A stretch of DNA of 39,858 nt from the IMG/VR virus record IMGVR_UViG_3300042288_000504, positions 1 through 39,858 of that record, one strand, 5' to 3'. How positions within the stretch are numbered: position 1 is the stretch's first letter; every line of letters starts with the position of its first letter. The position numbers were made by a program, and so were the translations under genes. Positions 1,758-14,253 of the stretch are shown here, piece by piece. The notes beneath the pieces were generated by a model. That model did no database searches and was not told the origin of the DNA. It saw nothing but the letters and a program-made list of their open reading frames with translations. The DNA is from a virus.

Positions 1758-1910
1758 TTAGTTGTCGGTCAAGTTAGGCAGTGCTTCACTGCGCAGTAGC
1801 CATGCAGCAAATGCAACGTGGCTAGCAACAGCTTGCTTATTCACTGGTGCCATTGGGTAAGACTCTGCCCACCAGCGGCGGAATAGCGCCTCAAGATCTG
1901 CTTCGCTCAT
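1758..1910 (-). CDS. Small hypothetical protein (50 aa)
   Basis: ATG at 1910 overlaps the SSB stop as TGATG and gives MSEADLEALFRRWWAESYPM, ending in LTDN at a TAA. The sequence 'FRRWWxESY...H..FAAWLL' is a compact amphipathic helical protein like those often found next to phage SSB or RecT genes. Function unknown. Its coupling to the SSB gene suggests joint expression with the recombination cassette. Confidence 0.65.
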   Translation of the reverse strand: MSEADLEALFRRWWAESYPMAPVNKQAVASHVAFAAWLLRSEALPNLTDN

Positions 1911-2254
1911 CAGAATGCAGGCTCCTCAACTTGCGTGGCGCGAGGCAGAAACTCAAACCGCTGCACATTAAGCACATGCTTGCTGCGCTTGCCGCCGGTT
2001 TCTTTGTCGTTCCACTCTTGGCGCCGGACGTTGCCCGTCACCATGATGGAATCACCCTTCTTGCAACGATCAACAACAAGCTCTGCAGACTTGCCCCACA
2101 TTTCAATGTCAATCACATTATTGATGTAATTGCCATCCTTGTCCTTGCCCTCTTGAATGCCACCTGCAAAGTTGGCAACCATGCTGCCGCTTTCAAAAGC
2201 ACGCAGCTGAGGATCAGAAATGATGCGAACGATACCGGATGCGTAAAGGCTCAT
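1910..2254 (-). CDS. ssb: Single-stranded DNA-binding protein (114 aa)
   Basis: A short OB-fold SSB: SLYASGIVRIISDPQLR at the start, the FESGSMVANFAG strand, NVIDIEMWGKSAELVVDRCK in the middle and GDSIMVTGNVRRQEW near residue 75, all typical of the bacterial/phage SSB family. It binds ssDNA during replication and recombination. The linker is very short, but the end (ATQVEEPAF) keeps the acidic-plus-aromatic pattern by which bacterial SSB docks partner proteins. It is the last core member of recombination cassette 1. Confidence 0.9.
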   Translation of the reverse strand: MSLYASGIVRIISDPQLRAFESGSMVANFAGGIQEGKDKDGNYINNVIDIEMWGKSAELVVDRCKKGDSIMVTGNVRRQEWNDKETGGKRSKHVLNVQRFEFLPRATQVEEPAF

Positions 2255-2475
2255 GGCAGTGGTGTGATGTTATTGGCCTCTTCAAAGGCCAGGATTTGAG
2301 ATAGCGGGTACCGCACCCGTGGCGTACCGGCTGGAAAGCCGATGCGCGGGATGGTGTAGTACCTAGGGCCAATGCCGCGCGCGCGTTGGTTTTTGATGGC
2401 TGATGGCTTCAGCCCCCATCGCGTGGCCAATTGATCATTGGTCAGGTACGGCTCAGTTATCAAATGGATCCTCAA
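2251..2475 (-). CDS. Small HTH DNA-binding protein, cassette 1 (74 aa)
   Basis: Contains an AlpA/excisionase-like winged-HTH core: YLTNDQLATRWGLKPSAIKN followed by a basic segment, then RVRYPLSQILAFEEANNITP. The layout 'YLT..QLA.RWG....I.......G..Y......V.YPL..I..FE' also fits the second cassette's protein at 6227. Probably a regulator or accessory DNA-binding factor. It overlaps the SSB start by 4 bases and the Bet 3' end by 23 bases. Confidence 0.75.
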   Translation of the reverse strand: MRIHLITEPYLTNDQLATRWGLKPSAIKNQRARGIGPRYYTIPRIGFPAGTPRVRYPLSQILAFEEANNITPLP

Positions 2476-3196
2476 TAGCGGGCTCTAGCTCAGCCTCCTT
2501 GGCCAGTGCTAGTTCTATGAGCTGCTGGTTCTGCTCATCGTTTAGATCAGGCTTGCGCTTGTCCATGCGTGCAACAACCTCTTGCAGCTTGTCCATCGTG
2601 TCGGCTTTGGCAATAGCAGCCTTGCCGGCTTGGAACAGCTTGGCATCGCCTGCAGGCGATGCGGCAACCGTGACTGGTTGCACTTCGGCCTGTTCCATCT
2701 CGTCGGTGCTGTAGACACCTGAGAGGTCAGCAGGAAATGCCTTGCGCAACGCAAGCGCCTCGCTGCACTTAGCGATCATTGCGGCGGGCATCTTGGACCA
2801 CAGGCCCTGTCCGGCGTTGTAGTCGGCAAACCGCGCCACACCGACAAACGGATGGCTGGCACCCTTGCGGTGAATGATCGTCTTGGCCGCGGCAGGTGGC
2901 TTGCTGCCAAGCCACACGTCAGCCCATTGGCCATCTTCGCCACACCAGTACGTCTCTGAGCCGTCGAGCTGGCCGGTACGTTCGGCGATGCTGCGGAGGC
3001 CGTCGATGCCGGCCTGGATGGTCATGCGCCCACTGCGTCGGATGGCGTAGATCTGCTTTGAAAACGGATCCAAACCTGTCCGCTGGCAGGCATAGGCGAA
3101 CAGGCGCAGCTCGTCAACGCTGCAGCCTGGCGCGATTGTGGTGCTGATCAGTTGCGTCTGCTCTGGGGTCCAGAGCGCAAGTGAGCTAGAAGTCAT
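2453..3196 (-). CDS. bet: Bet-type single-strand annealing protein (247 aa)
   Basis: Strong match by eye to the lambda Red-beta/Bet family: WTPEQTQLISTTIAPGCSVD, then ELRLFAYACQRTGLDPFSKQ, IYAIRRSGRMTIQAGIDGLR and ARFADYNAGQGLWSKMP. Bet proteins anneal complementary single strands in phage recombination, working with a 5'-3' exonuclease, here encoded just upstream (3186-3974). Length is close to the usual ~260 residues. The C-terminus is acidic and ends IEDPFDN. The start overlaps the nuclease stop by 11 bases. Confidence 0.92.
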   Translation of the reverse strand: MTSSSLALWTPEQTQLISTTIAPGCSVDELRLFAYACQRTGLDPFSKQIYAIRRSGRMTIQAGIDGLRSIAERTGQLDGSETYWCGEDGQWADVWLGSKPPAAAKTIIHRKGASHPFVGVARFADYNAGQGLWSKMPAAMIAKCSEALALRKAFPADLSGVYSTDEMEQAEVQPVTVAASPAGDAKLFQAGKAAIAKADTMDKLQEVVARMDKRKPDLNDEQNQQLIELALAKEAELEPAIEDPFDN

Positions 3197-3974
3197 CAGA
3201 TGTCATGGTTGGGGTAGTGCCAAGTGCCCAGCTGGGCAAGCTCAGCGTTTCGCAGATGGTGCTATAGCCAGGCCACTCATCAATGGCACGGCAGTCGGCA
3301 ATGGTCTGCAGGTTCTGGCGCCGTAGCGCTTCACCTGCCTTCATCGCCTCCGCATCCAGCTCGTAGACGGCGACACAGAACGGATAGGTCTTCTCCACTG
3401 CGATGAAGAGAAACCGATCTGCGGGAACACCGGCCAAGTAGTGGTCGGCTTGGACATGGTAGCGGAAGGATGCGACAGATCGCGCAAAGGCTGCCGGGCT
3501 GGCATCCGTGGTGGTCTTGAGGTCAACCACTGTCGAGCCATCAAACCAGTCCGGGCGGCACTTGCAGCGCAAGCCGGATTGCGCATCATCAAACCAAAAG
3601 GATTGCTCGGCCTTGCCATGGGACAGCAGTGCCGCGGCGTAAGGGTGCTGACGCACCGCAGACGCCATAGCCATGGCCTGCTCCATGTCGGATGCAGTCA
3701 CGGCCTCGATGCCGGATGCTTCCATCTCGGCAGCCATCTCCTTGCCAGCTTTGGTATTACGCGGCAGGCAGACGGCATAGCGCTTGGCTAGCTCGTCTGG
3801 CTCGAGTACAGCGCAATGCACCAAGCTGCCTAGCTTCATCGCTGCGGTCTGCACCGACGGCGGCCGCTGCGGGTTGAGATACCGAGCCCAGTAGTGATAG
3901 GGGCTGGCGGCAACGGCGTGCAGGTGGCTAGCGCTAACGGCTGGATCAGCGTGGTATTCAGCGTTGCTGGTCAT
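3186..3974 (-). CDS. PD-(D/E)XK exonuclease (DUF3799/RecE-like), cassette 1 (262 aa)
   Basis: Start placed at ATG 3974 (MTSNAEYHADPAVSASHLH), matching the start of the paralogue at 7073-7909. The family signature is SASHL..., GSLVHCAVLEP near residue 50, and the nuclease core KCRPDWFDGSTVVDLKTT with the D..(D)xK catalytic arrangement, followed by YHVQADHYL. These are the phage exonuclease VIII-like partners of annealing proteins that resect dsDNA ends. It ends TMTSDDF, an acidic-aromatic tail. It precedes and overlaps bet. Confidence 0.87.
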   Translation of the reverse strand: MTSNAEYHADPAVSASHLHAVAASPYHYWARYLNPQRPPSVQTAAMKLGSLVHCAVLEPDELAKRYAVCLPRNTKAGKEMAAEMEASGIEAVTASDMEQAMAMASAVRQHPYAAALLSHGKAEQSFWFDDAQSGLRCKCRPDWFDGSTVVDLKTTTDASPAAFARSVASFRYHVQADHYLAGVPADRFLFIAVEKTYPFCVAVYELDAEAMKAGEALRRQNLQTIADCRAIDEWPGYSTICETLSLPSWALGTTPTMTSDDF

Positions 3975-4162
3975 GCTGCTCTCAGCTGGCGGTGCAGGTG
4001 CGTTTGCGGGCCGTAGCACTGCTGCAGTTCTGGGAATGCAAGCAGCACACGCTGTTTGTTTTCAGGATCGGCGTGCAGTGTCGCCTCAGCCAAGCGGCGG
4101 TAGAAACCGCCGCTGTGGTGGATAGCCGTCTGCAGCGTCCAGTAGGTGTCGTTGGTGGTCAT
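3971..4162 (-). CDS. Hypothetical protein (63 aa)
   Basis: ATG 4162 (MTTNDTYWTLQTAIHHSGGF) overlaps the upstream stop as ATGA and the downstream nuclease start by four bases. The predicted product is helical with a central segment FYRRLAEATLHADPENKQRV. No family recognised; its position makes it part of the cassette 1 transcript. Confidence 0.6.
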   Translation of the reverse strand: MTTNDTYWTLQTAIHHSGGFYRRLAEATLHADPENKQRVLLAFPELQQCYGPQTHLHRQLRAA

Positions 4163-4284
4163 GGCTTCAGCTGCTGCTGGCAAGCGTGGTGAGCCTGCAC
4201 CTGCTGTTTGCCGGTGTCATATGCCATGGCAGCAATGCCAAAGATGATGGCCAGCATTGCGAGTCGGTCGATGGTCTTGATCAT
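4159..4284 (-). CDS. Small membrane or secreted peptide (41 aa)
   Basis: ATG 4284 gives MIKTIDRLAMLAIIFGIAAM, a single hydrophobic segment, followed by a hydrophilic tail (YDTGKQQVQAHHACQQQL). Single-pass membrane peptide or signal-anchored tail; function unknown. It is preceded by the CACCCCAA...CGAGAA leader shared with two other small genes here. A similar 43-residue peptide (39136-39267) follows the second membrane-HTH gene. Confidence 0.6.
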   Translation of the reverse strand: MIKTIDRLAMLAIIFGIAAMAYDTGKQQVQAHHACQQQLKP

Positions 4285-5700: not shown

Positions 5701-5904
5701 ATGAATTTCGGTGAATGGATGGCAGTTCAGCTGACAGCTGAGCAGCAGTTTGAAATCGAAAAACAAGCCCGCACCCTGATTGCCAGTCCAGATGCAGGCG
5801 TGATGGCCGCGGCGCTCTTGAAGCAAGCCTGCTATCAGCAGCAGCTGCTGCAGCAGGCCGTTCATGAGATCGCCCGCCTTGAGTGCGAGCTGATGGGGCG
5901 TTAG
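5701..5904 (+). CDS. Small helical phage protein on the opposite strand (67 aa)
   Basis: MNFGEWMAVQLTAEQQFEIE with a long helical region (ACYQQQLLQQAVHEIARLEC). It looks like the small coiled-coil proteins of cyanophages with 'AEQQFEIEKQAR...LLxQAVxEIARLE'. It is the only plus-strand gene inside the left minus-strand block, divergent from the zinc-ribbon gene and convergent (4-base overlap) with the SSB-like gene. ATG 5719 is an alternative start. Confidence 0.65.
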   Translation: MNFGEWMAVQLTAEQQFEIEKQARTLIASPDAGVMAAALLKQACYQQQLLQQAVHEIARLECELMGR

Positions 5905-6230
5905 AAGAACGGCTCTTCCATCACCTCCGCCACCACGCCATCGGTGGCGGCAGCCAAGCTCTGAGCAGCAGCAGCAGCAGCAGCCTGCGGCGGCTCCCAT
6001 CCCATTGGCGGTTGCGCCACAGCGCTCACATAGGCAAGCCCCTTGCTGCTGGTTTTCTTCCAGCCGCTGATCGGTACCTGCACGCTGCCGTATTGATCTG
6101 GAGTCTGGCTAATCACGAATGCGCAGAACGCATCGAGCTCCTCCACCTTCACGCTCATCATTCCGCTGAAATCCACCTTGCTCTCAGGCTTGGTGGATTT
6201 GAAGATCGCCAGGTTCAGCTTGAAGCTCAT
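5901..6230 (-). CDS. Probable SSB-like ssDNA-binding protein, cassette 2 (109 aa)
   Basis: Start at ATG 6230 (MSFKLNLAIFKSTKPESKVD), preceded by CCCCGGAGAAC. It occupies the position that SSB has in cassette 1. It is not a recognisable canonical OB-fold SSB, but it has a beta-rich N-terminal 75 residues, an Ala/Gln-rich flexible linker (QAAAAAAAQSLAAA) and an acidic-aromatic tip (EVMEEPFF) very like a bacterial SSB tail. SSB-like function is inferred from context and tail. Confidence 0.6.
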   Translation of the reverse strand: MSFKLNLAIFKSTKPESKVDFSGMMSVKVEELDAFCAFVISQTPDQYGSVQVPISGWKKTSSKGLAYVSAVAQPPMGWEPPQAAAAAAAQSLAAATDGVVAEVMEEPFF

Positions 6231-6418
6231 TGTTCTCCGGGGTTGATGGTGTTGGCCTGTTCGTATTGCTCCACCTCGGCCAAGGGGTAGAGCACGAAAC
6301 CGGGCGTGCGGAAGTACGCAGGCCCTTTGCCGGTCTTGCGCCATCGCAGCAGCGTGTCACGACTGACACCCCACCGCTGGCATAACTGCGTGGCGGTTAA
6401 GTAGTCAGAAGATCTCAT
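6227..6418 (-). CDS. Small HTH DNA-binding protein, cassette 2 (63 aa)
   Basis: YLTATQLCQRWGVSRDTLLR followed by W.KTGKGPAYFRTPGFVLYPL is an AlpA/MerR-like DNA-binding domain, alignable with the cassette 1 protein at 2251. Start could be ATG 6418 or 6424; both overlap the RecT 3' end. The order nuclease-RecT-HTH-SSB is the same as in cassette 1, with 4-base overlap to the SSB-like gene. Confidence 0.75.
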   Translation of the reverse strand: MRSSDYLTATQLCQRWGVSRDTLLRWRKTGKGPAYFRTPGFVLYPLAEVEQYEQANTINPGEQ

Positions 6419-7073
6419 CGTCATCCGTTGCAGCGGCTGATGTTTCGGGCTGCAGCTTGGCATTCAAATCAGCCACGCTTGTGGTTGCCGGTGCTGCGCT
6501 CACTGTTACTGGCTGCACGTCCAACACCTCCTCCTGGCTCTGCATACCGAGCAGCATGTCACTCGCATATAGCCGACCCCAGAAGGCCGCGGCGCGGTAG
6601 CGGATCATCAGCTCCGGCATGGTCTGCCACTTGCTGCCGCTCTTAGTGGCCCATCCTTCCTTCTTGGCCATCGCCATGGTGACCGTTGGCCCTTTCAGTT
6701 CTTGGCTGCTGGCCAGATCGGTGGCCACTGCATAGCAGGCCAGGCCATCGCCTTCACCGCTCATCTCAAATCGCAACGGGCTGAAGCGGCCGCAGCCGTT
6801 CACCATCGCAATGATGAAGCTGCTGCTCCACGATGGGCGGCCGTGGATCACGTGCAGATGCTGCATGGCAAGAAATGGGCTGATGCCCATCCGGCCTGCA
6901 ATCTCGAGCGCGACGAGGCAGTTGGCAAAGCCCTGCTGCCCTTGGAACTGCGGCGGGATCAGCGTGCTGCTGGCGAGGGCCTTGGCGATACGCTGCGCAT
7001 CCTCGAATGCTTGAATGCCGGAAAAGACTGAGCCTCCCGGTTGCGTGGTGGTGAGTGCTGTGGATTCAGTCAT
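6405..7073 (-). CDS. RecT-like single-strand annealing protein (222 aa)
   Basis: Matches the RecT-type phage recombinase pattern: FANCLVALEIAGRMGISPFL, AMQHLHVIHGRPSWSSSFII, then a beta region and KWQTMPELMIRYRAAAFWGR before LYASDMLLGM. It is clearly different in sequence from the Bet protein at 2453 but sits in the equivalent place. The C-terminal 40 residues look disordered and end AATDDDEIF, resembling the DDDIPF tip of E. coli SSB. TGATG overlap with the upstream nuclease. Confidence 0.8.
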   Translation of the reverse strand: MTESTALTTTQPGGSVFSGIQAFEDAQRIAKALASSTLIPPQFQGQQGFANCLVALEIAGRMGISPFLAMQHLHVIHGRPSWSSSFIIAMVNGCGRFSPLRFEMSGEGDGLACYAVATDLASSQELKGPTVTMAMAKKEGWATKSGSKWQTMPELMIRYRAAAFWGRLYASDMLLGMQSQEEVLDVQPVTVSAAPATTSVADLNAKLQPETSAAATDDDEIF

Positions 7074-7909
7074 CAGTACATCTCGATCTCGGTGAGCTGT
7101 TGCTGCGCGCCACTGGCGCCTGTCATCCAGCCCGGCAGGCTGATGGTTTCGATCTGATCGCTGTAGCTCGGCCAGCTGTCAGCAGCGCGGCAGGTGGCCA
7201 GCTTGCCAAGATCCTTCAATGCCTGTTCGTAGCCGCGATCAGTCATTACCTCATCAGCGGCATAAACCGCCACGGCATATGGCGCGGTCGATTCCACACA
7301 GATGAAGATGAACTGATCCGGGCGCTTGCCGGTGGCCTGCTCAACCCCGTTCAGATACCAAGCTGCCTGCACGTGGTAGCGGTAATCATCGATGCTGCGC
7401 ATGAAGCCGCGCGGGCTGGCGTCTCTGGTGGTTTTGAGATCCACCATGATGCTGCCGTCATCAGTCAGCCAATCCGGCCGGCACTTGCACTCCATCCCAT
7501 AGGTGGCGTCTGTCCACATGTGCGTGGTCTCAGCCTTGCCCGGCAGCCCTAGCAGCATTGCAGCACCGGGATGGCGCATGATGCTGCGCCCCATGGCCAT
7601 CACCACCTCGGCATCGTCGGCGGTGATCACGGTCTTGCCAGCAGCAGCGGTCTCGAACGCTGCATAGGACTCCTTGCCGGCCTTGGTGCGGCGATCCATG
7701 GCAGGCGCTACGGCGATCTCTTCATCCCATCTGCTCAGCTCAAGCACGTGCGTGTGCAACGCAGTGCCAAGGCGCATGGCAGCAGATGGCTCCGGCGTGA
7801 TGCGGTTCGGATCCAAGTAGCGCGACCAGTAGTGCAGCCCTGATCGCGCGATGAGATCCAGGTGAGACTTTGAGACGGCCGGATGCGCGTGGTACGCAGT
7901 GTTGTCCAT
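7073..7909 (-). CDS. PD-(D/E)XK exonuclease (DUF3799/RecE-like), cassette 2 (278 aa)
   Basis: Paralogue of 3186-3974: AYHAHPAVSKSHLDLIARSG and HYWSRYLDP at the start, RLGTALHTHVLE near residue 47, nuclease core CKCRPDWLTDDGSIMVDLKTT-like with D and DxK, then YRYHVQAAWYLNGV. Predicted dsDNA-end resection partner of the RecT-like protein. It is the promoter-proximal gene of the minus transcript starting in the 7910-8000 control region; a possible TAGTAT -10 lies 23 bases upstream of its ATG. Confidence 0.87.
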   Translation of the reverse strand: MDNTAYHAHPAVSKSHLDLIARSGLHYWSRYLDPNRITPEPSAAMRLGTALHTHVLELSRWDEEIAVAPAMDRRTKAGKESYAAFETAAAGKTVITADDAEVVMAMGRSIMRHPGAAMLLGLPGKAETTHMWTDATYGMECKCRPDWLTDDGSIMVDLKTTRDASPRGFMRSIDDYRYHVQAAWYLNGVEQATGKRPDQFIFICVESTAPYAVAVYAADEVMTDRGYEQALKDLGKLATCRAADSWPSYSDQIETISLPGWMTGASGAQQQLTEIEMY

Positions 7910-7957
7910 AGTTGCGGGCAGTTGCGGCCAAATACTAGCAGTTGCGGCAAGCTGCGC
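7910..7957. promoter_or_regulatory. Divergent control region with helically phased AGTTGCGG repeats
   Basis: AGTTGCGG occurs at 7910, 7920 and 7940, with a weaker match (AGCTGCGC) at 7950, all on the same strand and in register at 10-bp steps. They flank the only A/T-rich spot (AATACTA; TAGTAT on the reverse strand). The region separates the minus recombination transcript from the plus replication transcript. Most likely an operator array for a small HTH protein. Confidence 0.55.
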
Positions 7958-7971
7958 TACTCTACCGAGCG

Positions 7972-8000: not shown

Positions 8001-10268
8001 ATGAACTACTCCGCTTTTCTCGCTTCCAAGTCAACCGCCTGCCCACCAGCAGGATTCGATCCGGCATCCTTCACCGCTCCGCTGTTCCCCTTTCAGCGGG
8101 ACATCGTGACCATGGCCTGCCGTGTTGGCAGGTTCTGCATCTGGGCCGACTGCGGCATGGGCAAAACCGCCATGCAGCTCGAATGGGCATCACAGGTCTG
8201 CCGGCACACCAAAGGCAACGTGCTGGTGCTGGCACCGCTTGCCGTTGCGCATCAGACCGTGCGCGAGGGTGCCAAATTCGGCATCAGCTGCAGCTTTGCC
8301 GCCACGCAGGCTGATGTCCAGCCCGGCATCACGATCACCAACTACGAGAAGCTGAGCCACTTCGATCCATCCGCCTTCGATGGCGTGGTGCTGGATGAGA
8401 GCAGCATCCTCAAGGCATATACGGGCAAGATCCGCAATCAGATCATCGAGTCGTTCAGCCTCACTCCATACCGCCTGGCCTGCTCAGCCACACCAGCACC
8501 CAACGACCACATGGAGCTGGGTAACCATGCTGAGTTCATCGGCGTGATGACCCGCACCGAAATGCTGGCCATGTTCTTTGTGCATGACGGCGGCGACACC
8601 GCTAAGTGGCGGCTCAAGGGTCACGCGCGGGACAAGTTCTGGGAGTGGGTCTGCAGCTGGGCGGTGACCATCCGCAAGCCATCAGACCTTGGCTACGAGG
8701 ACGGCAACTTCGTGCTGCCGGCACTGCAGATCCAAGACTGCACGGTTGAGACGCCACGCGAGGCAACAGCAGGTGACGACGGGCAGATGGCGCTGTTTGC
8801 CATGGAGGCTCGTACGCTCAACGATCAACGCAAGGTGCGCAAGGCATCGCTCGCTCTCCGCGTGGCCGCTGCCGCCAAGCTGGCCAACAGCAACACCGAG
8901 CAGTGGCTGGTGTGGTGTGATCTCAACGATGAGAGCAAGGCGCTCACCGCTGCCATTGATGGCGCGGTTGAGGTGTCAGGCTCGGATTCTGACGACCACA
9001 AGCGGCAGGCCGCCATTGACTTCCAAGACGGCAAGATCCGCGTACTGGTCAGCAAGCCGAGCATCTTTGGCTTCGGCCTGAACTTTCAGCGGTGCCACAA
9101 CGTCGCATTCGTTGGACTGTCGCACAGCTACGAGGCGTTCTATCAAGCCATCCGTCGATGCTGGCGATTTGGCCAAGAGCAACCCGTCAACGCTCACATC
9201 ATCTACGACGTGGCAGAAGGCCGCGTGATCGACAACATCCGCCGCAAGGAAGCGGACAGCATCCAGATGGCTCAATCAATGGTTGAAATCATGAAGCAAC
9301 AAACCATGGAACAACTCAAGAAGATCCAACGCCAAGTGGCGCCGCACATCACTGAGCACAAGTCCGGTGATGGATGGGATATGTATATGGGTGACTGCGT
9401 GGAGAGCATTAAGCAGCTCGACGGCAATTCCATCCACTACAGCATCTTCAGCCCACTATTCGCGTCGCTTTACACCTACAGCAACAGCGACCGCGATATG
9501 GGCAACAGCCGCACTGAGCAGGAGTTTTTTGATCACTTTGGATTCCTTGCCAGTGAGCTGCACCGCGTGATGATGCCTGGCAGACTGATCAGCTTCCATT
9601 GCATGAATCTGCCCAGCAGCAAAGAACGCGATGGTTTCATCGGTGTGAAAGACTTCCGCGGCGATATGCTGCGCATCTTCCAGGCTGCTGGCTTTGTCTT
9701 CCATAGCGAGGTGTGCATCTGGAAGGATCCCGTCACCGCCATGCAGCGCACCAAGGCGATCGGTCTGCTGCACAAGCAAGTGCGTAAGGATTCAGCACTC
9801 AGCCGCCAGGGCATTCCTGATTACCTCGTGACCGTGCGCAAGCTGGGCGACAACCCCGAGCCAGTGGCTGGTCCGTTCACTGAGTTTGCCGGTGAGAATC
9901 CACCATCCAAAAGCGGCGATCCGATCAAGGACTCGATCAACATCTGGCAGCGTTACGCCAGTCCGGTGTGGATGGATATCAACCCATCAGACACGCTGCA
10001 ATACCGCAGCGCACGCGCCAATGAGGATGAGCGTCACATCTGCCCGTTGCAGCTGGAGGTGATCCGCCGCGGCCTGCAGCTATGGAGCAACCCAGGCGAC
10101 GTGGTGCTGTCGCCGTTTGCCGGCATCGGCAGCGAGGGCTACTGCAGCCTTGAGATGGATCGGCGCTTCGTTGGCTTTGAACTGAAGCCCAGCTACTTCA
10201 ACTGCGCTGTCAAGAACCTGACCAATGCACAATCAGCAAAGCAGGCGGAGCTGCTGCCATGCAGCTGA
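8001..10268 (+). CDS. SNF2-type helicase fused to a DNA methyltransferase (755 aa)
   Basis: Start at ATG 8001 (MNYSAFLASKSTAC); an earlier in-frame ATG lies inside the operator region. Residues 25-430 are an SF2/SNF2 helicase: ADCGMGKTA (Walker A, residues 49-57), VVLDESS (motif II, 132-135), ACSATPAPND (motif III) and QAIRRCWRFGQ (motif VI). Residues 450-750 are an N4/N6 aminomethyltransferase in which motif IV reads SPLF (484-487) instead of the usual (D/N/S)PP(Y/F), and motif I reads SPFAGIGSEGY near 704-714. Likely roles are DNA remodelling with protective methylation. It overlaps the next gene by 10 bases. Confidence 0.85.
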   Translation: MNYSAFLASKSTACPPAGFDPASFTAPLFPFQRDIVTMACRVGRFCIWADCGMGKTAMQLEWASQVCRHTKGNVLVLAPLAVAHQTVREGAKFGISCSFAATQADVQPGITITNYEKLSHFDPSAFDGVVLDESSILKAYTGKIRNQIIESFSLTPYRLACSATPAPNDHMELGNHAEFIGVMTRTEMLAMFFVHDGGDTAKWRLKGHARDKFWEWVCSWAVTIRKPSDLGYEDGNFVLPALQIQDCTVETPREATAGDDGQMALFAMEARTLNDQRKVRKASLALRVAAAAKLANSNTEQWLVWCDLNDESKALTAAIDGAVEVSGSDSDDHKRQAAIDFQDGKIRVLVSKPSIFGFGLNFQRCHNVAFVGLSHSYEAFYQAIRRCWRFGQEQPVNAHIIYDVAEGRVIDNIRRKEADSIQMAQSMVEIMKQQTMEQLKKIQRQVAPHITEHKSGDGWDMYMGDCVESIKQLDGNSIHYSIFSPLFASLYTYSNSDRDMGNSRTEQEFFDHFGFLASELHRVMMPGRLISFHCMNLPSSKERDGFIGVKDFRGDMLRIFQAAGFVFHSEVCIWKDPVTAMQRTKAIGLLHKQVRKDSALSRQGIPDYLVTVRKLGDNPEPVAGPFTEFAGENPPSKSGDPIKDSINIWQRYASPVWMDINPSDTLQYRSARANEDERHICPLQLEVIRRGLQLWSNPGDVVLSPFAGIGSEGYCSLEMDRRFVGFELKPSYFNCAVKNLTNAQSAKQAELLPCS

Positions 10269-11948: not shown

Positions 11949-11984
11949 CTACCAACCTGCCAACCTTTCTGCCAAACTCTGCCG
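11949..11984. repeat. 8-bp iteron-like cluster, left of primase gene
   Basis: Units CTACCAAC, CTGCCAAC, CTGCCAAA and CTGCCGGC occur at 11949, 11957, 11969 and 11979. They are the reverse complement of the GTTGGCAG repeats found at 14171-14253, so the primase gene is bracketed by inverted clusters. CCAACCTTTCT (11960-11970) is repeated exactly at 14098-14108. Confidence 0.6.
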
Positions 11985-12000: not shown

Positions 12001-14154
12001 GTGGCAGCCGATCTCCTCCACCAGCTCGCCAATATCCCCGACCATTGGGCCTTGGTGGCAGTCGGCAACGACAAGCGCCCGTATCAGCCTGAATGGCAAA
12101 AGCACCCCATCTCCCGCCAGCAGCTCACAGCTGAGATCAACGCCGGCCGTGCCGTAGCCATCGGCGTGATCGCTGGCCCGCAGTCCGGTGGCCTCCTCTT
12201 CGTCGATCACGATGGTCTGGGTGCCTCCGAGGTGCTCGAGCAGATCGGCGCACCACTGCGTGAGCTACCCAAGTCATGGGCCGTTACCTCCGGCCGTGAT
12301 GGCCGCGTTCAGATCATCTATCAAGTCCCAGAACCCTTCTGGGCCACCATCAAGACCACCAAGCTGCGCAGCAGCATCAAGGGTGAGCAGCTCGAGCTCC
12401 GTTGGTCTGGTTGTCAGTCCGTCGTCGCAGGTGCTCACCCCATCACCGGTGCCTACCGCTGGCTTAAAGGTCGCGCACCGGGTGATCTGCCCCTCGCTGA
12501 GGCGCCCTCACTCCTGCTGCAGCAAATGCAGCGCCATAAGCCCGACCCCGCGCCGCTGCTGCGCCTACCAGATACCGACGCACAGCGCGCACGCGATTAC
12601 CTCGCATCCATCCCAGCAGCCGATGCCGATGACTACGACGCATGGCTGCGCGTTGGCATGGCGCTTCACAGCGTCGGTGATGACTCGCTCCTGTCCGACT
12701 GGATCAGCTGGTCCACCGCATCCGGCAAGTTCGAGCCCGGTGTCTGCGAAGCGAAATGGCGCACCTTCTCATCAGCAGCTGGTGGTGTCAGCATCGGCAC
12801 CCTCGCGCACCTAGCAGGCCATGAGAAAAGCCGCCCGTCTCCAGCCGGGCAGCCGCCATCTCCGCCGCAACAACGCAGCGCGCCAAACCCTACCGCAGCT
12901 CACGGCAAGCTCCTCAAGCTCGAATCCAATGAGCTTCTCGAGCTCCTGCGTCAGCAGCTAGGCGATCGCCTCCGCTGGAACCTGTTCACCAAGGTGATCG
13001 AGCTCGACGAAAAGCCCCTCGAGCACATCGAGCACTTCTACCTGCAGCTCTCACAGCAGGGCGTCAAGGTCACCAAAGACCTAGCCGCTGATGCCGTCCA
13101 CGTCGTCGCACTTGAGAACCCATACGACCCCGTTCGCAACTACCTCGAGCATGTCGCTGATCACGTGCAGCCCGTTCCTATCGATCACATCGCAACCGCC
13201 TACCTCCGCCCAGCAGATCAACCCGGCACCCTCTACGACGCCATGCTCAAGGCCACGCTGGTCGCAGCGGTACGCCGCATCTTCGAGCCCGGCTGTAAGC
13301 ACGACTCCGCCTGCGTCCTGATGGGCCCCCAGGGCTGCGGTAAGTCCACCTTCTGGCGCAACCTCGGCGGCCTTTGGTTCAGTGATGCCCTACGCGACAT
13401 CGGTTCCAAAGACGATCTCATGGTGCTCCACCGCTCATGGCTCATGGAATGGGCCGAGCTCGATCACATCACCAACCGCAAGCACGCAGGCCAGGTCAAA
13501 GCCTTTCTCACCCAACAGACCGACATGTTCCGCGCGCCATACCAGCGCACCACTGAGGCATACCCACGCCGCTCGATCATCGTCGGCTCCACCAACCGCG
13601 ACACCGGCTTCTTAGTCGACGACACCGGCAACCGGCGGTTCTGGGTCATACCCATCACAGCAGCGCCACACATCCCCGTAGATGGCCTGCTGCTCGAACG
13701 TGACGCCATCTGGTCCGCAGCCGTCGCCGCATACCGCGCAGGTGAACCCAACCACCTCTCACGCGAACACAGCGCACAGGTCGACGCCGAAAACGAGTCC
13801 TACCTCGTCGATTCCCCATGGAAGGCCGCCATCCAGGAGTGGCTCAACTCACCCCGCAATGAAGGCCGACCCATCACCAGCGAGCTGCTCCTGACCGAAG
13901 CAATCAGCAAACCAGTCGAGCGCCAAGGTCGCGCTGATCAGATGCAGGTCGCATCGATCATGCGCGAGCTCGGCTTTGCCAAACAGCGCCAATGGGTCGA
14001 TGGACGCTCCAGATGGGTATTCCTTCCAACCTCAGCGGAGAGGTTGGCAGGCCGAGATCCATTGCAGCGCAGCGACTCCCCTAACCTTACTAACCTCCCA
14101 ACCTTTCTAAAGGATTTAATAAAAAGGGGAGAGGGTAGAAAAAAGGAGCTATAG
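12001..14154 (+). CDS. Primase-polymerase with VapE-like helicase domain (717 aa)
   Basis: GTG start at 12001. Residues 1-180 are a bifunctional primase/polymerase (Prim-Pol) domain: WALVAVGNDKRPYQPEW, IGVIAGPQSGGLLFVDHDG with the acidic metal site, and LRWSGCQSVVAGAHPITG. Residues about 200-280 form a PriCT-like helical domain (AWLRVGMALHS...KWRTFS). Residues 420-600 are VapE-like P-loop: LMGPQGCGKSTFW (about 440-452), LMEWAELDH, PRRSIIVGSTN and DTGNRRFWVI. The protein would prime and unwind at the phage origin. The 3' end carries iteron-like repeats within the coding sequence. Confidence 0.88.
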   Translation: MAADLLHQLANIPDHWALVAVGNDKRPYQPEWQKHPISRQQLTAEINAGRAVAIGVIAGPQSGGLLFVDHDGLGASEVLEQIGAPLRELPKSWAVTSGRDGRVQIIYQVPEPFWATIKTTKLRSSIKGEQLELRWSGCQSVVAGAHPITGAYRWLKGRAPGDLPLAEAPSLLLQQMQRHKPDPAPLLRLPDTDAQRARDYLASIPAADADDYDAWLRVGMALHSVGDDSLLSDWISWSTASGKFEPGVCEAKWRTFSSAAGGVSIGTLAHLAGHEKSRPSPAGQPPSPPQQRSAPNPTAAHGKLLKLESNELLELLRQQLGDRLRWNLFTKVIELDEKPLEHIEHFYLQLSQQGVKVTKDLAADAVHVVALENPYDPVRNYLEHVADHVQPVPIDHIATAYLRPADQPGTLYDAMLKATLVAAVRRIFEPGCKHDSACVLMGPQGCGKSTFWRNLGGLWFSDALRDIGSKDDLMVLHRSWLMEWAELDHITNRKHAGQVKAFLTQQTDMFRAPYQRTTEAYPRRSIIVGSTNRDTGFLVDDTGNRRFWVIPITAAPHIPVDGLLLERDAIWSAAVAAYRAGEPNHLSREHSAQVDAENESYLVDSPWKAAIQEWLNSPRNEGRPITSELLLTEAISKPVERQGRADQMQVASIMRELGFAKQRQWVDGRSRWVFLPTSAERLAGRDPLQRSDSPNLTNLPTFLKDLIKRGEGRKKEL

Positions 14155-14253
14155 GGGCAACGTTGACAAGGTCGGCAGGTTGACAGTTGATCCCATCCAC
14201 GCCAATTCGCGCGTCAGTCTTCGCGCGAGGTTGGCAGGTTGGCAGCTTGGCAA
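14039..14253. repeat. 8-bp iterons and A/T-rich stretch: candidate replication origin
   Basis: GAGGTTGGCAGG at 14039; CTAACC/CTCCCAACCTTTCT units at 14081-14108; an A/T- and purine-rich run 14108-14150; GTCGGCAG-GTTGACAG at 14171-14186; and a perfect tandem GTTGGCAG-GTTGGCAG-CTTGGCAA at 14230-14253. Iterons next to an A/T-rich tract beside a primase gene are a classical origin layout. The non-coding part is 14155-14288. Confidence 0.55.

Follow-up and report, generated by a model that had tools for sequence, protein, structure and literature searches.

A phased array of five 10-bp repeats as a putative operator of an exonuclease VIII-RecT-HTH operon in a probable cyanobacterial virus

Introduction

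RDF/BldC-type proteins bind cooperatively and head-to-tail to direct repeats spaced one helix turn apart (PMC7498355, PMC5859096, PMC11963761). In phage 186, Apl has seven operators between pR and pL, and represses both promoters via one array with a period of 10-11 bp (PMC7498355). RdfS represses its own promoter (PMC11963761). In the open-access literature, no paper was found on such arrays at exo/RecT operons. Here, I analyzed a viral contig from IMG/VR (39,858 bases; the window), in which a comparable array lies directly upstream of the first gene of an exonuclease VIII (exo)-recT-HTH run, where the sequence itself suggests a promoter. An Apl/BldC-type array consists of at least three direct repeats, each about a helix turn from the next; the present one has five units at 10 bp. 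The window probably belongs to a virus of freshwater cyanobacteria. The host is likely to be a picocyanobacterium, since the helicase gene of the window matches that of Synechococcus phage S-CBS3 (80.5% DNA identity over 68% of the query).

Results

The array occupies the first 50 bp (positions 7910-7959) of a 91-bp gap between the leftward exonuclease VIII gene (ATG at 7909) and the rightward helicase gene (ATG at 8001). The window contains only three exact copies of AGTTGCGG, starting at 7910, 7920, and 7940, and a weaker fourth copy, AGCTGCGC, which keeps the TGC core, starts at 7950. Re-reading the sequence confirmed these positions, which had been given in a preliminary description. The same description took the stretch between the second and third exact copies for an A/T-rich centre. 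However, positions 7930-7939 are themselves a fifth, degenerate repeat unit, which reads AGATGCTAGC in many relatives. Thus, the element consists of five 10-bp units and reads AGTTGCGGGC AGTTGCGGCC AAATACTAGC AGTTGCGGCA AGCTGCGCTA. On the plus strand, putative operator unit 1 (7910-7919, AGTTGCGGGC) abuts the exo start codon, would lie in the leader of the leftward transcript, and stands on the 10-bp grid in relatives. Putative unit 2 (7920-7929, AGTTGCGGCC) is near the presumed leftward start site, and unit 3 (7930-7939, AAATACTAGC) is the degenerate middle containing the likely leftward -10 element. The last two putative units are unit 4 (7940-7949, AGTTGCGGCA) and unit 5 (7950-7959, AGCTGCGCTA).

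The array is strongly non-random. An 8-mer was found three times in the 91-bp gap in only 1 of 20,000 dinucleotide shuffles, and in none of 20,000 were the three copies on a 10-bp grid; most of the shuffles used across the analysis as a whole were mononucleotide shuffles. The self-match of the gap was 0.57 at lags 10 and 20, as against 0.12-0.34 at other lags. In a scan of the whole window for 50-mers with a period of 10, positions 7910-7959 ranked first with a score of 60, followed by a score of 47, while the maximum of 20 shuffled genomes was 52.

The probable leftward -10 element is TAGTAT on the minus strand (7932-7937), and the corresponding place in relatives reads TAGTAT, TAGCAT, or TATAGG. 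It is of the extended type, with TGC directly upstream, and has no good -35 element. A sigma-70 consensus scan of the gap gave no match at its threshold. Therefore, the assignment of the leftward -10 relies on the extended -10 and its conservation. A possible rightward -10 element, TACTCT on the plus strand (7958-7963; TACTGT, TACGGT, or TAGGTT in relatives), overlaps unit 5. It is weak, and its best -35 element is CTAGCA.

The leftward operon begins with the exonuclease VIII-like gene (7073-7909, minus strand; PHROG 412, DUF3799/PDDEXK). The second gene (6405-7073, minus strand) was assigned to a RecT-like annealase on the basis of its neighbourhood and a Pfam RecT match with an E-value of 6.5e-4, which is below the cut-off. 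The third gene (6227-6418, minus strand) encodes a 63-aa HTH_17 winged-HTH protein of the Xis/RdfS/BldC-like type. The first gene of the rightward operon encodes a helicase-methyltransferase fusion (8001-10268, plus strand). The window has two exonuclease VIII-RecT-HTH cassettes in tandem on the minus strand, at 1910-4019 and 5901-7909. In relatives, these two cassette types mostly occur singly, one divergent from the helicase gene and the other co-directional with and downstream of it. Direct and inverted AGGTTGGCAG-type repeats flank the primase/helicase gene at 12001-14154 (11950-11970, 14088-14108, 14169-14186, and 14228-14253); they may represent origin iterons or a recombination boundary. 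In the array-less loci L005, L007, L023, and L046, the helicase promoter has an imperfect palindrome (CTTGCAA-CGTAGC...GCTACG-TTGCAAG), and in several of them a primase homologue is divergent on the far side of the palindrome.

Is the array conserved, and with which gene? Two sets of relatives were compared, 80 loci fetched by the helicase and 80 by the exo sequence. The array is conserved, phased, and linked to the exo cassette. The preliminary description had named the absence of the repeats from close relatives as the result that would speak against it; they are present there. In 25 representatives less than 85% identical, 68 occurrences of TGC fit a 10-bp grid, as compared with 24-32 for periods 6-9 and 11-16. 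Among 58 distinct exo-upstream sequences, period 10 beat the shuffles (p<=0.05) in 51 and was the best period in 49, as compared with 18 of 237 pieces taken at random from these loci. Seven of the 58 (L159, L161, L166, L168, L172, L177, and L191) have the HTH gene and show no clear ungapped period 10. The core letters drift among the relatives while the 10-bp phase is kept. Wherever enough sequence is available, the array-bearing relatives all have an HTH_17 homologue as the third gene of the exo operon; exo and RecT accompany the array just as faithfully. L164 retains the usual TGC core with a diverged HTH protein (54%). In L216-L218, the 10-bp repeats upstream of exo have another core (GCATC), and the HTH recognition region is changed as well. 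One exo relative was found among bacterial genomes, in a beta-proteobacterial MAG contig (61%), and its exo-upstream sequence scored best at period 10 (0.41). A scan of viral contigs with an 18-base pattern returned mostly unrelated contigs. One of these, L136, has four perfect tandem copies of GGCGAGTTGC at 4234-4271 in an unrelated context.

In the helicase set, the array was found only in loci with a divergent exo, and close relatives having the same helicase without this exo cassette lack it. In the exo set, exchange of the right-hand gene leaves the array with its exo-recT-HTH cassette (L147, L155, L170, and L173-L215). L147, L155, and L170 have a nearly identical array beside another right-hand gene; in the former two, the shared sequence runs through the TGC of unit 5 and departs directly after it. 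Thus, the array belongs to the recombination side. These results bear on the preliminary description, which proposed a phased operator to which a small phage HTH protein binds cooperatively, switching between the recombination and replication transcripts. The phased candidate operator for such a protein is supported; the switch as stated is not, since the array follows the cassette rather than the right-hand gene. A true two-way switch is conceivable though rather unlikely. A filament on the array would repress the exo and helicase operons differently, or activate one of them, so that the HTH protein balances the two transcripts. This would suit the divergent layout, the overlap of unit 5 with the possible rightward -10, and the precedent of 186 Apl, for which a single array with a 10-11 bp spacing suffices to repress pR as well as pL (PMC7498355). 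However, it explains neither the retention of the array beside different right-hand genes nor its absence from same-helicase relatives without the exo cassette.

The 63-aa protein is likely to be the binder of the array, judging from its sequence and predicted structure. Its start was set at 6418 from an alignment of relatives. It belongs to Pfam HTH_17 (39 bits; curated cut-off, 27) and matches PHROG 66, excisionase and transcriptional regulator (E=3e-10). In a profile search against PDB, RdfS was found with an E-value of 5e-4, and BldC weakly (E~0.04). The AF2 model (pLDDT 83) shows a strand-helix-helix-wing-helix arrangement, that is, the Beta-HTH-wing-helix fold. It was aligned with the GIsul2 excisionase and RdfS (Z 7.9), BldC-DNA (6.5-6.8), Pukovnik Xis (6.6), P2 Cox (6.5), and lambda Xis-DNA (5.5), where Z-scores below 8 are modest for a small domain and can mean a common arrangement only. 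No tyrosine integrase or serine recombinase (PF00589, PF00239) was detected in the window or in 20 relatives, some of whose records may be incomplete, while control genomes were positive. Since no integrase was found there, the 63-aa protein was read as a dedicated autorepressor. Its assignment as a recombination directionality factor, which would call for a partner integrase and an array at an att site, was rejected, since neither recombinase family was found in these sequences. The preliminary description had listed the small HTH genes at 2251, 6227, and 37779 as candidates. The list seems to have included the right one, as the 6227 gene encodes this HTH_17, RdfS/BldC/Xis-like protein. The 37779 gene was discarded, since its product has no HTH_17 match and its best PHROG is an HNH endonuclease.

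A tblastn search with the 63-aa protein retrieved Foxunavirus, Jilinvirus, Mano, Mica, Persinger, and other unrelated phages. Their HTH gene, too, is preceded by genes for exonuclease VIII and an annealase- or RecA-like protein and is followed by SSB, in an operon divergent from a helicase gene. A period-10 array with the core GTGA precedes exo in Foxunavirus, Mano, Mica, and Persinger, and a weaker one in Jilinvirus. Upstream of exo, Mano has TGA in five of five units, Mica has four copies of CGTGA around a degenerate middle unit, and the core of FoX1 is GTGA. The period is marginal in Arya, ep3, and Persinger (p 0.02-0.045) and not significant in KA2-1 (p=0.2). The repeats lie directly downstream of a good sigma-70 promoter (e.g., TCGACA-17-TATACT) in FoX1, Arya, ep3, KA2-1, and Persinger, which is a repressor layout. 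No array was found directly upstream of exo in the co-directional operons with HTH homologues of KBS-S-2A, S-H1, ctEw122, and ctQRb9. The core and the HTH recognition region covary: TGC is paired with HPDTLxRWR, GTGA with TTGTLANWR, and GCATC with HRQTLIRWR (L216-L218). According to the Murka paper (PMC10892653), Mano and Mica have full integrases, but all that is left in Foxunaviruses is an integrase remnant. Thus, the HTH gene and the array persist after loss of the integrase, which would be expected if they serve transcription regulation.

Several other small DNA-binding proteins are encoded nearby, so that another regulator might read the array: the second-cassette HTH (2251), an HTH_23-like protein (4582), an NrdR-like zinc-ribbon protein (5396), or a host factor. 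I consider this improbable. The 2251 gene, also proposed in the preliminary description, is the HTH gene of the second, separate cassette, and several array-bearing relatives lack the 4582 gene or have another in its place; only the 6227 gene is kept throughout, also in the unrelated array lineages. A host factor would not explain why core changes accompany changes of the phage HTH. Replication-origin iterons would account for direct repeats adjoining replication genes beside the helicase. This is very unlikely, because the place of the array over the exo promoter is conserved in relatives with other right-hand neighbours. Still less credible are boxes for a lambda CII-type activator. Positions 7912-7925 match TTGC-N6-TTGC letter for letter, but there are five units instead of two, and the core drifts while the phase stays; with no Phage_CII gene in the window, this candidate was rejected. 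Chance or neutral short tandem duplication does occur, as in the four AGTTGCGGCG copies of the unrelated contig L136, but is practically refuted here by the conservation of the phase under drifting letters and by the shuffles, none of 20,000 of which reproduced the grid.

Discussion

I suggest, with a probability of roughly 70%, that positions 7910-7959 are a five-unit operator with the core TGC at the promoter of the exo-recT-HTH operon, and that a cooperative filament of the operon's own HTH_17 protein autorepresses it. Most likely, the array serves as a docking strip for an excisionase-like protein of the same operon, turning the operon down. One 63-aa monomer would bind each 10-bp unit, and binding to a single site would be weak. 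The monomers would stack head-to-tail cooperatively into a short, bent filament that covers the leftward -10 and the transcript start, thereby repressing rather than activating transcription. As the HTH_17 protein accumulates, the exo-recT-HTH operon would repress itself. The same filament may damp the helicase promoter too, since unit 5 overlaps the weak rightward -10. The proposed operator would be of the RDF/BldC type, serving here a phage recombination operon and apparently independent of an integrase.

How far does this extend? Integrase-independent autoregulation of exo-recT by an Xis/BldC-like filament repressor and a phased array may be a widespread and so far undescribed design in cyanophage-like viruses and several proteobacterial phage genera, with the core retuned together with the recognition helix on a constant 10-bp phase, and with the module retained in Foxunaviruses. 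The odds for this wider proposal seem about even. If it is true, 'excisionase' or 'MerR regulator' genes in lytic phages would be dedicated recombination-operon repressors and not relics of lysogeny, which bears on calling phages temperate from such annotations. It would also offer a set of natural variants whose operator cores and recognition helices have shifted jointly on an unchanged 10-bp lattice, and a tractable system for how RDF-like filaments gain specificity.

Among known systems, RdfS, lambda Xis, P2 Cox, and Pukovnik Xis share the predicted winged-HTH fold and a spacing of about 10 bp per monomer. In contrast to the present protein, they act with a tyrosine integrase, which was not detected in the window or the 20 relatives. 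Streptomyces BldC (whiI and smeA-sffA sites), which was found by both the HTH profile (E~0.04) and the fold (Z 6.5-6.8), is a small MerR-like winged-HTH protein that is purely a transcription regulator and binds head-to-tail to direct repeats; it differs in the 9-bp repeats at whiI, in the core, and in being a cellular developmental regulator with many targets (PMC5859096). Phage 186 has seven operators and face-to-face lytic and lysogenic promoters, whereas the present array has five units, placed over the putative promoter of a recombination operon. It also has a second array at att and an integrase, the latter not found in the present window, and the Apl and 6227 proteins are not close relatives. 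Nevertheless, the 186 operators, which lie at opposing early promoters, are likewise direct repeats with a spacing of one helix turn, and Apl is a small cooperative HTH repressor of a lytic operon with weak single-site specificity (PMC7498355), properties proposed here by analogy. Apl of phage 186 is the closest functional precedent for the array.
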